From Anaerolineae bacterium (GTDB lineage Bacteria; Chloroflexota; Anaerolineae; Aggregatilineales; UBA3940), in contig JAFGMS010000139.1 of the NCBI GenBank assembly GCA_016927375.1, positions 1 through 35,574 of the forward strand: DNA of 35,574 nucleotides, given 5' to 3'. The translations under genes and the position numbers were made by a program. Positions 20,042 through 30,226 of this stretch are shown in pieces. Below the pieces are notes generated by a model. That model ran no database searches and was not told the DNA's origin. It was given only the letters and a program-made list of their open reading frames with translations. Within the stretch, counting starts at the first letter, position 1; every line of letters starts with the position of its first letter.

Positions 20042-20659
20042 ATGTCCATATCGATCAGCGCTGCAATACTGGCGGGTGGGCAAAGCTCCCGTATGGGAGC
20101 TAACAAGGCTTTTGCTCTGGTTGGCGGGCGGTCCATCATCGAGCGGGTCATCGAGCGGGTGGCCTCTCTTACTGATGAGTTGGTGATTATTGCCAATAAA
20201 CCTTCTGAGTATGTCCGGCTGGGTTTGCCTGTCTTCACCGATCTACTTCCCGGTAAAGGACCTCTAGGCGGATTATACACGGCTATTACTCGGACTCGCG
20301 CGGAACACACGCTGGTGGTAAGCTGCGATCAGCCCTTTCTCAACCCGGAGCTGCTGCGCTACCTGATCAATCTCAGAGAAGGTTACGATGTCGTTGTACC
20401 TCTTAGCGGGGACGATTATCCCCAGAGCATGCATGCTGTCTATGGCAAAGGCTGTCTGGAACCGATCCGCCGCTGTATTGATGCTAAAGAGCTTAAAGCA
20501 ATCGGTTTTTTGGACAAGGTGCTTGTTCGCCGTGTCGGCAGTGCAGAGATCGAGCGCTTCGACCCGGACCGTTTGAGCTTCTTCAACGTCAATACCCCCG
20601 ACGATCTCAAGCAGGCTGAGCGGTTGGCTTGCTCATCACATCCTACAAAGATGGAATAA
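20042..20659 (+). CDS. mobA: molybdenum cofactor guanylyltransferase
   Basis: A 205-residue nucleotidyltransferase that joins GMP to molybdopterin to make the guanine dinucleotide cofactor used by DMSO-reductase-family enzymes. The diagnostic N-terminal GTP-binding loop is present (AILAGGQSSRMGANKAF, residues 8-24), as are the GPLGGLYTAI segment, the metal-binding Asp in VVSCDQPFL, and the C-terminal FFNVNTPDDLKQAE motif. GAGGAGG lies upstream of the ATG. No other Mo-cofactor gene is in the window, so the molybdoenzyme it serves lies elsewhere. Its 3' end overlaps the convergent membrane-protein gene by 17 bp. Confidence 0.93.
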   Translation: MSISISAAILAGGQSSRMGANKAFALVGGRSIIERVIERVASLTDELVIIANKPSEYVRLGLPVFTDLLPGKGPLGGLYTAITRTRAEHTLVVSCDQPFLNPELLRYLINLREGYDVVVPLSGDDYPQSMHAVYGKGCLEPIRRCIDAKELKAIGFLDKVLVRRVGSAEIERFDPDRLSFFNVNTPDDLKQAERLACSSHPTKME

Positions 20660-21827
20660 GGCTGATGGCAAAGAAAAGACAGCCTACCACCATGCTCATC
20701 ACTGTCCCGGCAATAATTACCGTCCCCATAGACACCAGGATATTCAGCTTATGCGCGGCTTTGACGGCATTGGCCATCTGCAAGAATTGGTAGATGCTTG
20801 CAACCAACGAACCCACAGCCAGGATCGCCGGAGAGAAAGGCGCAAGCAGCCACACGGGAATTTGCACGATGCTGGTAGCAACCAGGCCAATGGTCAGAGC
20901 TAGGGTCAATTGAATGATATCCCCTTTGCCGCCCAGCCGCTCGGCTACAGCGTTGACAGCAATGGCCAGGAACATCTGACCGACAAACGTTAACAGCACC
21001 GTCAGGATCAGGTACACCGCAAAAATCGTGCCAAACGCGGCTGCTACCTCAGGCGAGATGCGGGGAATCGAACCGCCGCCTGTGGCAGCCACCAAATAGT
21101 TATAAGCAGGCCTGAGTGCCGGATAGATCCAATTGGCGCTATTGAATTCCTCAATAGCCGCCAGCATTTCATTGAGCGATTGGATCGCGGGCGAAAGCAG
21201 AGAGTCGGGATTGCGCCCGACAGCAAGCAGCAGTACAAAAAAGAGGAGAGCCGCCAACACCTGCAAGAACACCGCAACGTTAATATTGATCAGGATGTGG
21301 GGCACCGAGCCATACTGCACCTCTTCATCGTAAGGGCCGATGATCTTGAAGATCAGGGCGTTTGCCCAGGCACTGGTCAGATCGAGTAAGGTGCGTGGCG
21401 CCGGCTCTCTGCAACTGGGAATCAGGATAGCATCGGAGACATACTCTCCATCGCCGGCAGGCTTTTCAAGCAGGCCGGCACGCCATTGCTCCTCGGGAGG
21501 GAGCTCGCTGCCAGGAGAGGGTGAGGCTTGGATTTGTGAGGATGGCGGCTCCGGCCCAGTATCATCTCCTGGAAGCGAAGCGCCCAGTTTGCTCAAGCCC
21601 TTGAGGGCAGCCTCACTACGAGGATTGATCGTCAGGACATTCTGAAGACAGATGATGCGTTCTTCATCGGTGTCCACGCAGGTGCTGAGCCACAACCAGG
21701 CCTGCTCGTGAAGCTGATCCTGCTCGACCACCTTCATCAGCTTCTCTCTGCCTGTCGCCTTATCGCCGGCCCGGATAGCGGCCACGCCCTCCCGGTAAAG
21801 ACGATCTGTTTCACTTGAGTCTGCCAT
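20643..21827 (-). CDS. membrane protein with tetratricopeptide-like N-terminus and Yip1-like domain
   Basis: A 394-residue protein. Residues ~1-85 are helical and tetratricopeptide-like (DRLYREGVAAIRAGDKATGREKLMKVVEQD, EQAWLWLSTCVDTDEERIICLQNVL, NPRSEAALKGL), an arrangement frequent at the start of Chloroflexota membrane proteins. A Pro/Ser/Glu linker (~90-115) follows, then a ~250-residue membrane region with about five hydrophobic segments resembling the Yip1 domain (first segment near ININVAVFLQVLAALLFFVLLLAVG). GAGGGGGG lies before the ATG. The function is unknown; a scaffold or membrane-organising role is a guess from the domain types. Its last 17 bp overlap mobA convergently. Confidence 0.75.
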   Translation of the reverse strand: MADSSETDRLYREGVAAIRAGDKATGREKLMKVVEQDQLHEQAWLWLSTCVDTDEERIICLQNVLTINPRSEAALKGLSKLGASLPGDDTGPEPPSSQIQASPSPGSELPPEEQWRAGLLEKPAGDGEYVSDAILIPSCREPAPRTLLDLTSAWANALIFKIIGPYDEEVQYGSVPHILININVAVFLQVLAALLFFVLLLAVGRNPDSLLSPAIQSLNEMLAAIEEFNSANWIYPALRPAYNYLVAATGGGSIPRISPEVAAAFGTIFAVYLILTVLLTFVGQMFLAIAVNAVAERLGGKGDIIQLTLALTIGLVATSIVQIPVWLLAPFSPAILAVGSLVASIYQFLQMANAVKAAHKLNILVSMGTVIIAGTVMSMVVGCLFFAISLIPSL

Positions 21828-25374: not shown

Positions 25375-26652
25375 ATGAATATAGCAGAACTTGAAGTGAT
25401 GACGTTGTCTGAACTGCGTGAGATAGCACGTGAAGCTGAGATTGCCGGACTCAGTCGCATGAAGAAACAAGACCTGATCCTGGCTTTGCTACGTCACAAA
25501 GCCGAGCAACAAGGTTTCCAATTGCGCGGCGGCGTCCTGGAGATCATCGAAGAAGGGATTGGCTTTCTTCGTTCCGATCACTATGTGCCTGGGCCAGATG
25601 ATATTTACGTCAGCCAAACGCAGATCAAACGCTTTGACTTACGAACCGGCGATCTTGTTGTTGGGCAGGTGAGACCTCCCAAGGATACCGAGAAGTACTA
25701 TGGTCTGCTGCGCGTCGAGGCAGTCAATGGCCTCGATCCGGAACAGGCCAAGAAGCGCCCACATTTCGAGCAGCTCACTCCTATCTTCCCGGAAAGACGT
25801 TTCGATCTGGAGACCAATGGGCGCATTCTTTCTACCCGCCTGCTCAACCTGGTGGCACCGATCGGACGTGGGCAGCGTGGGCTGATTGTCTCCCCACCCA
25901 AAGCCGGCAAGACAACTGTCCTCAAAGAGATTGCCAACGGCATTAGCCACAATTATCCGGAAGTCCATCTCATGGTCCTGCTGATCGGTGAGCGCCCAGA
26001 AGAGGTCACTGACATGGATCGCTCAGTCGAGGCAGAGGTGATTGCCTCAACCTTCGATGAAGCATGGACCAGCCAGGTGCATGTCAGCGAGATGGCCATG
26101 GAAAGGGCCAAACGCCTGGTAGAAAGCGGAAAAGACGTGGTGATCCTGATGGACAGCATCACCCGGCTGGCAAGAGCTTACAACCTGGTTGTGCCTCCCA
26201 GTGGACGTACACTCTCCGGCGGTCTTGACCCCAGCGCACTTTATCCTCCCAAAAGGTTCTTTGGTGCAGCCCGTAATATCGAGGAAGGTGGCTCGCTCAC
26301 CATCATCGCCACCTGCTTGGTCGATACCGGTTCCCGCATGGATGATGTCATTTACGAAGAGTTCAAGGGCACCGGTAATATGGAGCTGCATCTTTCCCGC
26401 AAGCTGCAAGAGCGCCGCACCTTCCCGGCATTCGATATCGAGCGTTCCAGCACACGGCGTGAAGAGCTGCTGCTTGGTGCAGACATCCTCCAGCGCGTTT
26501 GGTTAATGCGCCGTATGCTCAGCCAGATGATGGCTCCACTGCCTAACGGTGCAGGCATGGAAATGACCGCCGCTACAGAGGCTGTCATCGATCAGCTGCG
26601 CCGCACCGAAAGCAACGAGGAATTCCTGCAGTTCCTGACTGACAATAGTTAA
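25375..26652 (+). CDS. rho: transcription termination factor Rho
   Basis: A 425-residue hexameric RNA helicase that ends transcription. The Rho_N domain (MTLSELREIAREAEIAGLSRMKKQDLI, ~residues 9-40) leads to a cold-shock RNA-binding domain (GVLEIIEEGIGFLRS..YVPGPDDIYVSQTQIKRF) and then the ATPase with Walker A (PPKAGKTT, ~residue 180), Walker B (VVILMDSITRLARAYN), and the C-terminal block LDPSALYPPKRFFGAARNIEEGGSLTII. No insertion domain separates Rho_N from the RNA-binding domain, so this is the compact form. All catalytic motifs are present. Weak AGGA-type ribosome sites lie upstream of the ATG. Confidence 0.97.
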   Translation: MNIAELEVMTLSELREIAREAEIAGLSRMKKQDLILALLRHKAEQQGFQLRGGVLEIIEEGIGFLRSDHYVPGPDDIYVSQTQIKRFDLRTGDLVVGQVRPPKDTEKYYGLLRVEAVNGLDPEQAKKRPHFEQLTPIFPERRFDLETNGRILSTRLLNLVAPIGRGQRGLIVSPPKAGKTTVLKEIANGISHNYPEVHLMVLLIGERPEEVTDMDRSVEAEVIASTFDEAWTSQVHVSEMAMERAKRLVESGKDVVILMDSITRLARAYNLVVPPSGRTLSGGLDPSALYPPKRFFGAARNIEEGGSLTIIATCLVDTGSRMDDVIYEEFKGTGNMELHLSRKLQERRTFPAFDIERSSTRREELLLGADILQRVWLMRRMLSQMMAPLPNGAGMEMTAATEAVIDQLRRTESNEEFLQFLTDNS

Positions 26653-26725: not shown

Positions 26726-26754
26726 TTGACAGTTGGCTGCGATTCGGCTACAGT
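26726..26754 (+). promoter_or_regulatory. sigma70-type promoter of the nitrilase-fold gene
   Basis: A perfect TTGACA, a 17-bp spacer and TACAGT, ending 37 bp before the ATG at 26792. AAGGAG lies directly ahead of that ATG. Confidence 0.6.
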
Positions 26755-26791: not shown

Positions 26792-27694
26792 ATGCGTGAG
26801 ATCACTGTTGCTACCGTGCAGATGAAGCCCGAGCTGGGCGAGCTTGAGAACAACCTGGTCAAGATGTCTGATATTGTTTCCAAGATCGCCAACCAGCAAA
26901 AGGTCGATCTGATTCTCTTCCCCGAGCTCGTGACCAGTGGTTACGAGCTGGGTGTCAAGTTCACCAATCTTGCCCAGCTTGTCCCTGGCCCAACCGTCAA
27001 TTTGATGGCTCAACGTGCCCAACAGCTCGGTGTCCATATCGCCTTTGGTATGGTTGCCAAGGAGCGTGTTGAAAGCATTCTGTATGATGCAGCAGTGTTG
27101 ATCGGCCCGGATGGCGAATTCATCGGTGATTACCGCAAGGCTCACCTCAAAGGCGAAGAGCGAATGGCCTTCCGCGAGGGATATCGGCTGCCCGTCTTCG
27201 AGACCCAGATTGGCAATATTGGGATGGTGTTGGGCTGGGACCTGGCTTTTCCGGAGGTGGCGCGCAGCCTGGTACTTGATGGCGCCGAATTGCTGTGTGT
27301 GTTGGCAAGTTGGGAAAAAGACGACATTGAGGAATGGAAAACCTATCTGAAAGCACGCGCTTACGAGAATGCCGTCTTTGTGGCGGGCTCAAATCGCGTT
27401 GGAGAAGATGTCACATTGACCTTTGGCGGAGAGAGCATGATCGTCGGGCCGCGCGGCAAGGTCCATGCCTCTTTATCCAACAACACGTCGGGAGAGGCCA
27501 AAAAAGACGACGACAAGAAGGATGAGGGGCAAAAAGACGAAAAAGCTGCCCCTAAAGAGAAAAAGGGAAAGTTCGTCGAGGGGTACTGCGTGGCACGCAT
27601 CGATCTTGATGAAGTCAAGCGTCACCGCGAAGAGCGGTTGACACTCCAGGCCCGGCAGCCGACTGTGTACCGGAACATCGTCAGGAAATACTGA
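26792..27694 (+). CDS. nitrilase-superfamily protein lacking the catalytic cysteine
   Basis: A 300-residue carbon-nitrogen hydrolase fold. The family triad is Glu-Lys-Cys. Glu45 (LILFPELVTSGY) and Lys116 (YRKAHLKGEER) are present, but the nucleophile position in the segment that normally reads ICYD is LGWD here: Gly148, codon GGC at 27233-27235. The surrounding elbow (IGNIGMVLGWDLAFPEVARSL) is otherwise well conserved, and the frame is intact with its own promoter and an AAGGAG ribosome site. Residues ~229-263 are a highly charged Lys/Asp/Glu insertion (KKDDDKKDEGQKDEK) just before the last strand. Known family members without Cys cannot form the thioester intermediate, so this protein is probably not an amidase. 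It may bind a ligand or act as a partner subunit. A terminator follows it. Confidence 0.88.
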   Translation: MREITVATVQMKPELGELENNLVKMSDIVSKIANQQKVDLILFPELVTSGYELGVKFTNLAQLVPGPTVNLMAQRAQQLGVHIAFGMVAKERVESILYDAAVLIGPDGEFIGDYRKAHLKGEERMAFREGYRLPVFETQIGNIGMVLGWDLAFPEVARSLVLDGAELLCVLASWEKDDIEEWKTYLKARAYENAVFVAGSNRVGEDVTLTFGGESMIVGPRGKVHASLSNNTSGEAKKDDDKKDEGQKDEKAAPKEKKGKFVEGYCVARIDLDEVKRHREERLTLQARQPTVYRNIVRKY

Positions 27695-27733
27695 TCGGAC
27701 AGCAGCCTTCCAGCTGTATATCCTATATGCAAG

Positions 27734-27763
27734 AAACGGCGGCCTCGGCAGGTCGCCGTTTTG
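27734..27763 (+). terminator. Rho-independent terminator
   Basis: AAACGGCG-GCC and GGT-CGCCGTTTT form a stem with a short CTCGGCA-type loop, then Ts, 40 bp after the nitrilase-fold stop codon. Confidence 0.7.
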
Positions 27764-28082: not shown

Positions 28083-29132
28083 ATGGACTCCATAGATTTA
28101 CGCAGCGATACTGTCACCTGGCCGACGCCTGAGATGCGCGAAGCCATGTATCAAGCCGAGGTCGGTGATGATGTCTACGGGGAAGACCCGACCATCAACC
28201 GCTTAGAGGAGCTGGCTGCCAGGCGTTTGGGCAAGGAGGCAGCCCTGTTTGTCTCAAGCGGCACACAGGGCAACCTGATCGCCGTCCTGGCTCACTGCAA
28301 CCGCGGTGATGAGATGATCGTCGGTCAGAGTTCCCACACCTTCATCAACGAGGTCGCAGGAGCATCGGCATTAGGAGGCGTCTCATCCTATACCATCCCG
28401 ATACAGCAGGAAGGCACCCTTTCCCTCGCTGACATCCGCGCAGCCATCCGCGACCCGCGCGACATCCATTATCCTACGACCAGGCTGGTTTGCCTTGAGA
28501 ATACCAATGGCGCGGTCGGTGGCATCCCGCTCAGCATCCAATACACACGCTCGGTAGGAGAGCTATGCAGCGAGTGCGACCTGAAACTACACATCGATGG
28601 CGCGCGTATCTGGAACGCGGCAGCCGCATTTGGCTGTGATGTTAAGGATTTGGCCGCCCCGGCAGACAGCATCAGCTTCTGCTTATCGAAGGGATTGTGC
28701 GCACCTGCGGGGGCAATCCTGTGCGGGTCATGTGATTTCATCGAGCGCAGCCGCCGTCTTCGCAAGATGCTGGGAGGCGGCATGCGCCAGATCGGTATCC
28801 TGGCCGCGGCCGGGATTATCGCCATAGAGAAAATGACCAAGAGGCTGCAAACAGATCACAGCAATGCCAAACGTCTGGCCGAGGGTCTAAGCGACATCCC
28901 AGGTATTCACCTCAACATGCAGCAGGTACAAACCAACATGATCTTCTTCCGGCTCGACGAGTCAAGATCCATCGATGCAGCACAGATGACCGCAGTCCTG
29001 GCGCGAGAACACAACGTCAGGCTGGACGTCACCGGGCCACGCAGCTTCCGCGCTGTAACACATTACTGGATTACCGCAGAGCGCATAGAGACGGCTCTCG
29101 CAGCTATCCGGCAAGTCTGGGAACATGCCTGA
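28083..29132 (+). CDS. ltaE: low-specificity L-threonine aldolase
   Basis: A 349-residue fold-type I PLP enzyme cleaving L-threonine or L-allo-threonine to glycine and acetaldehyde. Family marks are the N-terminal IDLRSDTVTWPTPEMREAM and VGDDVYGEDPT, the LHIDGARIWNAA segment that contacts the cofactor, and the PLP-binding Lys in FCLSKGLCAPAG (~residue 205). The start is the ATG at 28083, with GGAG ten nt upstream; the longer open frame from 28041 runs into the structured repeat and is not used. Its stop overlaps the start of the next gene (TGATG), implying translational coupling to the CPBP-like membrane protein. The product glycine links it loosely to the one-carbon enzyme fhs 4 kb away. Confidence 0.95.
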   Translation: MDSIDLRSDTVTWPTPEMREAMYQAEVGDDVYGEDPTINRLEELAARRLGKEAALFVSSGTQGNLIAVLAHCNRGDEMIVGQSSHTFINEVAGASALGGVSSYTIPIQQEGTLSLADIRAAIRDPRDIHYPTTRLVCLENTNGAVGGIPLSIQYTRSVGELCSECDLKLHIDGARIWNAAAAFGCDVKDLAAPADSISFCLSKGLCAPAGAILCGSCDFIERSRRLRKMLGGGMRQIGILAAAGIIAIEKMTKRLQTDHSNAKRLAEGLSDIPGIHLNMQQVQTNMIFFRLDESRSIDAAQMTAVLAREHNVRLDVTGPRSFRAVTHYWITAERIETALAAIRQVWEHA

Positions 29133-30226
29133 TGACAATCCCTCCTATACCAGAACCAGAAGAAGATGTATTTTCTTACGCCGGAATACATCATACTGTT
29201 CCGCTGAAGCACGGGGGTCAGGACACAACCTTATTCGATCCCCCTGTCCTGCCGGAGGTCGATGTCGAGGCCGCACGCCGGCCGCTCTCTCCGGGAATAC
29301 CTCCTCTCAAGCATATTCCCCTGCCGCCGCCAGAGGCTTACCAATTGATTGTCCTTCCCCTGGAAGGAGGCAGAGTCGCCGATCAACCTTCCCATTCCAT
29401 AGGAGCGTCATCGGTCCATCCGGTTATCTCGCCAACAGAGCGAGTCCGGTTCCCGGTAGCTGAGCCACCGGCCTTCAAGCATCTTAAACCCGCCCCGACA
29501 GTTGTCGGGCAGCCGTCCAAACCTGCTGTACAAGAACCTGTTGTTGTGCCTGCTCCTGTTCTCACACCTACGCCAGCTGTCGAGTCAACATCCAGCCGCG
29601 CCGAAGCGCAGATATCCCAGCGCTTCGATCCCGTTTTCGCGCTGCTCGTCTACCTGGCGCTCGGTCTGGGCACCTGGGTGCTCAGCGATCTGGAAAGCCG
29701 CTACACAATCATGTGGATTGCCTTGATAGTTATCGGGGGAAGTCTGGTGCTGCTAGGGGGTGGCGAGCCGCGCGGCCAGATCTCGCTGGGCAGCTTGAGC
29801 TGGGGATTGATATTTGGTCTGCCGATTGGACTAATGCTGATTGTATTCGCCCCCCAGGCCCTGGCGACAACTTCCTCACTGCTCTTTCCCGGCATTAGCC
29901 TGCCCGCATTGTTCCAGATGCTGGCGATTACCGGTCCGCTCGGCGAGACGCTCTTCTTCCGTGGGGGACTTCAGGAACGGCATGGAATAGTAGCCGGAAT
30001 CATTGGGGCGGGTCTGGGAACGCTGGTTTTGTTTCTGCCTGCCGCTGCCGGGATACCTGAGCAGCTGACCGCGGTGGCCTTCGTTGCGCTGTTCCTGACT
30101 CTGCTGGCAGGGGCTTACAGTTATATTCGCGAGAGGTATGGGTTGGCTGCGGCCTATGCTTGCCAGGTGACGGTTAATGTCATGCTGCTCTTCCTACCCC
30201 GGTTGCTGGTGCCACCCGTGCCATAG
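29132..30226 (+). CDS. CPBP/CAAX-protease-like membrane protein with degenerate motifs
   Basis: A 364-residue protein. Residues ~1-160 are a cytosolic Pro-rich, low-complexity region (PPLKHIPLPPPEAYQLI, VVPAPVLTPTPAVEST). The rest has about seven hydrophobic segments. The block GETLFFRGGLQERHG (residues 271-285) matches the first CPBP motif EExxxR, but the first Glu is Gly, leaving only Glu272 and Arg277. The usual late His-xxx-Asn is CQVTVN, so the His is Gln. An intramembrane protease role is thus doubtful; a non-catalytic relative is more likely. The ATG overlaps the ltaE stop codon by one base, so it is translated in the same operon. Downstream lies the convergent der gene after 110 bp with no visible terminator. 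Confidence 0.75.
   Translation: MTIPPIPEPEEDVFSYAGIHHTVPLKHGGQDTTLFDPPVLPEVDVEAARRPLSPGIPPLKHIPLPPPEAYQLIVLPLEGGRVADQPSHSIGASSVHPVISPTERVRFPVAEPPAFKHLKPAPTVVGQPSKPAVQEPVVVPAPVLTPTPAVESTSSRAEAQISQRFDPVFALLVYLALGLGTWVLSDLESRYTIMWIALIVIGGSLVLLGGGEPRGQISLGSLSWGLIFGLPIGLMLIVFAPQALATTSSLLFPGISLPALFQMLAITGPLGETLFFRGGLQERHGIVAGIIGAGLGTLVLFLPAAAGIPEQLTAVAFVALFLTLLAGAYSYIRERYGLAAAYACQVTVNVMLLFLPRLLVPPVP

Follow-up and report, generated by a model that had tools for sequence, protein, structure and literature searches.

The window analysed here, a contig of 35,574 nucleotides from an Anaerolineae bacterium, encodes on an intact open reading frame (26792-27694, +) a nitrilase-fold protein of 300 amino acids that, judged by sequence comparison, belongs to an ancient, class-wide pseudo-nitrilase family. 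The assignment draws on the fixation of Gly at the position of the catalytic Cys, the grouping of all Gly-bearing proteins in a single clade, low dN/dS, and the presence of Cys in outgroup proteins and in the paralogs of the same genome. The family appears to have been maintained by strong selection from early in the history of the class and would be a natural example of how an enzyme can become non-catalytic while keeping the remainder of its active site.

Gene, codon 148 and expression signals

The features discussed below are, in coordinates of the window:

25375-26652 (+), rho, upstream neighbour, only in the genome family of the window (tblastn)
26726-26754 (+), sigma-70-like promoter, TTGACA-17-TACAGT (10/12 matches)
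26792-27694 (+), putative pseudo-nitrilase gene, 300 amino acids, CN_hydrolase fold, Cys148 to Gly (orthologs)
26924-26926 (+), codon of Glu45, the retained general-base Glu, FPEL motif (alignment)
27137-27139 (+), codon of Lys116, the retained catalytic Lys, lost in two other lineages (alignment)
27158-27160 (+), codon of Glu123, the retained fourth catalytic residue (alignment)
27233-27235 (+), GGC codon of Gly148 at the nucleophile elbow, replacing the catalytic Cys (sequence and alignment)
27482-27577 (+), low-complexity insert rich in charged Lys, Glu and Asp, covering about residues 231-262 (low model confidence)
27733-27762 (+), terminator-like hairpin 3' of the gene (folding)
28083-29132 (+), PLP enzyme resembling low-specificity L-threonine aldolase, found repeatedly downstream of the gene across the class (tblastn, NCBIfam)

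Fold and homology place the protein in the nitrilase superfamily (CN_hydrolase domain, alpha-beta-beta-alpha), with a Pfam CN_hydrolase match over residues 5-233 (E 6.5e-49); none of the curated NCBIfam families was matched above its own cut-off. Codon 148 (GGC; context GMVLGWDLAFPE) encodes Gly at the elbow where 18 of 18 aligned outgroup nitrilases of the phylum have Cys, confirming a preliminary description of this DNA in which Gly was seen in place of the catalytic Cys within an intact frame. That Glu45 and Lys116 are still present also held true in the open reading frame, and Glu123, aligned with the Glu that is the fourth catalytic residue in Cys-bearing homologs (Glu in 16/18 outgroups), is kept too. 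The protein therefore has the Glu, the Lys and the second Glu of an active enzyme and lacks the nucleophilic Cys, a residue found at this position in 0 of 195 family members. It is by homology a nitrilase-fold protein without one defining residue of the active members, which, at the level of sequence, fits the general idea of a pseudoenzyme.

The gene is preceded by the good promoter that had been described and by an AAGGAG-like ribosome site 5' of the ATG at 26792. For the terminator proposed at the same time, a mechanical terminator scan was negative, but there is a strong hairpin of 13 bp (-22.6 kcal/mol for a 51-base stretch, z -3.6), whose T tract is short. No Rfam match to a riboswitch or other known RNA was obtained around the gene.

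An AlphaFold2 model for which the window protein was aligned with 48 relatives showed the nitrilase fold (pTM 0.80, mean pLDDT 76.8) and matched nitrilase-fold entries of the PDB at E 1e-22, the best being N-carbamoylputrescine amidase, including its C158S mutant, and the Pyrococcus horikoshii amidase C146A with bound glutaramide. Residues 48-61 and 232-258 were poorly modelled, the latter corresponding to the charged insert, whose length differs between close relatives and which is absent from many others, occurring in some families only.

Distribution, conservation and origin of the family

A CN_hydrolase homolog was present in every one of the 61 relatives examined, most of which had one clear ortholog of 60-92% identity, with paralogs far lower (about 36% or less). 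Within the class Anaerolineae, represented here by groundwater, sediment and reactor metagenomes, this single-copy family was matched at E <= 1e-40 in 169 of 298 sampled genomes (about 57%). It is almost absent from the rest of the phylum, where one strong match was found (G348, 58%); this genome has 8% contamination, and its residue 148 is also Gly. A MAG labelled Bacteroidetes carries an Anaerolineae-type gene (L122, JAPUDW010000105.1), and the contig is probably mis-binned or mislabelled.

Residue 148 was compared in 195 distinct family members spanning 45 genome-family codes. Named relatives were the best 80 of 287, and residue 148 formed no part of the patterns used to retrieve the named loci, so these loci are not biased towards Gly. 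Gly was found in 192 members, Ser in two (L043 and L050, from one genome family), Asp in one (L076) and Cys in none. The alignment of 196 distinct proteins includes one non-member, L213, which has the only Cys; it was considered as a Cys148 family member and set aside as a separate homolog, with 39% identity and without the GEERxxFR signature. The codons at this position in 174 loci were GGC (107), GGT (32), GGG (18), GGA (14), AGT (2) and GAC (1), and the use of all four Gly codons is what would be expected if Gly itself is under selection. Pairwise dN/dS was about 0.02-0.08 where dS was usable, these figures coming from non-saturated pairs, as several pairs were saturated or identical.

Both comparisons proposed in the preliminary description, of residue 148 among orthologs and of dN/dS, thus gave clear answers: Gly without any Cys, and ratios far below 1. 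A key catalytic residue has been lost, the loss is fixed across orthologs and the gene is under purifying selection, and the low dN/dS together with Gly in 192/195 supports the suggestion that this is probably a maintained pseudo-enzyme rather than debris. Since GGC is one base from TGC, a sequencing error had to be excluded as well, and it is excluded by Gly-bearing orthologs in other, independent assemblies, one of them from a relative with 92% identity in a different MAG. With intact frames and low dN/dS, neither an error of sequencing or assembly nor a pseudogene in decay retains more than negligible probability, and both are ruled out.

The remainder of the active site is almost invariant, with Glu45 in 194 of 194 sequences with letters at that position, Lys116 in 193 of 196 and Glu123 in 191 of 196, the non-member included. 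Also kept are the PE motif after the elbow, the fold core and residues on the pocket side, W149 and Asp150 (D150) among them. Residues E52, G54, F57, K90, E94, E122 and R128 are specific to the family (at least 95% in the family, rare in outgroups), and a C-terminal motif ending RQPxxYRxIVxxY is conserved class-wide. This residue pattern looks like a changed yet still-constrained function, not relaxation. Lys116 is Ala in L051 and L234 (one genus code) and Glu in L206, with the gene otherwise intact, losses which indicate that the family tolerates further erosion of the catalytic set. A relocated Cys nucleophile was sought and rejected: Cys is most frequent in column 169 (55 of 95 sequences, and commoner in the window's own order), and in no column is it conserved class-wide.

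In a tree built without column 148, the Gly family formed one clade with branch support 100/99 against 14 outgroup proteins, all with Cys. This tree was rebuilt without long rows; the first tree had given the same split with weak support (44), owing to the very long branch of L193. As the tree is not rooted, the direction from Cys to Gly rests on the established view that Cys is universal in the rest of the nitrilase superfamily (PMC4700190). Cys is also kept by all four remaining CN_hydrolases encoded in this genome (L196, L197, L198 and L199). The simplest reading of the sequences would be a single change from Cys to Gly that preceded the radiation of the class.

Gene neighbourhood

Neighbour counts were taken from tblastn, because many of the neighbours predicted by a greedy open reading frame caller were spurious. 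Of the 160 loci with sufficient flank, 70 have a threonine aldolase-like gene immediately downstream in the same orientation; this arrangement occurs in 13 of the 29 genome families to which loci with family codes belong. The copy in the window scores above the NCBIfam cut-offs for the GntG aldolase subfamily and for low-specificity L-threonine aldolase. Gaps to the aldolase, measured from predicted open reading frame ends, range from overlap to about 350 bases, which makes an operon likely for some lineages. In the window, the terminator-like hairpin and about 390 bases lie between the two genes. Strict dependence on threonine aldolase is not supported by presence and absence: the aldolase occurs in 257 of 298 class genomes, the pseudo-nitrilase in 169 of 298, so neither gene needs the other and the association is one of conserved gene order rather than mutual dependence.

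Upstream, a pseudouridine synthase gene is found in 45 of 152 loci, sometimes preceded by lspA (tblastn). Rho was rejected as a functional partner, its adjacency being confined to the window's genome family. Two further open reading frames without a Pfam match were observed. The first, at 29132-30226 (+), encodes 364 amino acids, also has no NCBIfam match and recurs after threonine aldolase in many relatives; its N-terminal part is long and Pro-rich, whereas its C-terminal part is membrane-like and carries an ETLFFRG motif that recalls intramembrane proteases of the CPBP type. The second, at 20643-21827 (-), encodes 394 amino acids, and similar open reading frames lie near the pseudo-nitrilase in a few relatives.

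Possible function and comparison with known systems

We propose that the nucleophilic Cys of an amidase- or carbamoylase-like protein changed to Gly once, in an ancestor of most Anaerolineae, for which a single step (TGY to GGY) would have sufficed. Without the Cys, the thioester intermediate of nitrilase-superfamily catalysis could not form, and we infer a loss of hydrolase activity, that is, of covalent C-N hydrolysis. The retained Glu-Lys-Glu pocket would then bind a small metabolite bearing an amide, amine or carboxylate, and the protein, as a dimer, may serve as sensor, regulator or scaffold, perhaps in amino-acid metabolism beside threonine aldolase. The main precedent for a ligand-binding role is the Cys-to-Ser mutant (C158S) of the Medicago N-carbamoylputrescine amidase MtCPA, in which putrescine is still held (PMC4812014). 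Taken as a whole, a pseudoenzyme serving as a ligand-binding dimeric sensor, regulator or scaffold is probable, a rating that mainly concerns its being a pseudoenzyme; taken alone, a role as sensor or scaffold is put forward tentatively. Partnership with threonine aldolase is speculative; the linkage is partial, and a hairpin separates both genes in the window.

The near-invariance of Glu45, Lys116 and Glu123 could, however, mean that some chemistry persists. Gly148 might make room for a water molecule or a larger group, with Glu45 or Glu123 and Lys116 activating water or driving another acid-base reaction on an amide-like substrate; the specific fixation of Gly, not of any small residue, and the conservation of W149 and D150 would agree with such a Cys-independent enzyme. 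The replacement of Lys116 (Ala in one lineage, Glu in another, with the gene otherwise intact) nevertheless argues against hidden catalysis and makes this reading less likely, the Glu and Lys may equally be retained for ligand charge or fold, and removal of the thiol strongly diminished the reactivity of MtCPA (PMC4812014). We consider a Cys-independent enzyme unlikely, and a class-wide branch using Cys-independent chemistry through the Glu-Lys-Glu set and the elbow Gly distinctly unlikely, although such a branch, if real, would be a new catalytic mode for a fold said to be all E-K-C-E. Alternatively, the protein could join a Cys-bearing CN_hydrolase of its own cell in a hetero-oligomer and, as the inactive subunit, adjust that enzyme's activity or specificity in the manner of the NIT4A/NIT4B complexes of grasses (PMC3537687), which show that heteromeric nitrilases exist. 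Assembly in the superfamily is based on dimers and larger oligomers (PMC4700190), and Cys-bearing paralogs exist in the same genome; yet the genome family's paralogs are only distantly related (about 27-35% identity) and no Cys-bearing CN_hydrolase occurs among the recurrent neighbour gene families, so that we regard this arrangement as very unlikely.

Across most of a bacterial class, the family breaks the rule, stated in a 2016 paper, that the E-K-C-E active site is common to all nitrilase superfamily members (PMC4700190). Full-text searches of open-licence papers yielded no description of a Cys-less nitrilase family. Automatic annotation as nitrilase or carbon-nitrogen hydrolase is probably wrong for every member, and the family offers a defined target for a new sensor or scaffold in Anaerolineae.

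Among known systems, N-carbamoylputrescine amidase (AguB/MtCPA; TIGR03381) shares the nitrilase fold and is the best PDB fold match. In MtCPA, the nucleophile Cys158 acts with Glu48, Lys121 and Glu132 (PMC4812014); by motif context and profile alignments these three correspond to Glu45, Lys116 and Glu123 of the window protein, and in both proteins the residue after the nucleophile position is Trp (Trp159 of MtCPA, PMC4812014), whereas Cys158 is replaced by Gly148. The score against TIGR03381, 112.5 bits, lies below its cut-off of 410. The same-genome CN_hydrolases L196, L197, L198 and L199 also belong to PF00795 but keep the elbow Cys (VCWD, VICSD, AICFD and MICHD, respectively). Closest by sequence profile is the archaeal nitrilase/amidase (NF040852; P. 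abyssi 3ivz, P. horikoshii 1j31 and 6ypa; E 3.7e-54), which aligns collinearly along the entire domain, with the PEL, YRK-HL and RVGEE motifs in common; the window protein nevertheless reaches 127.6 bits against an NF040852 cut-off of 500, and the archaeal wild type has Cys146. The engineered C146A form (6ypa) and the C158S mutant of MtCPA are laboratory versions of the state found naturally here at Gly148.
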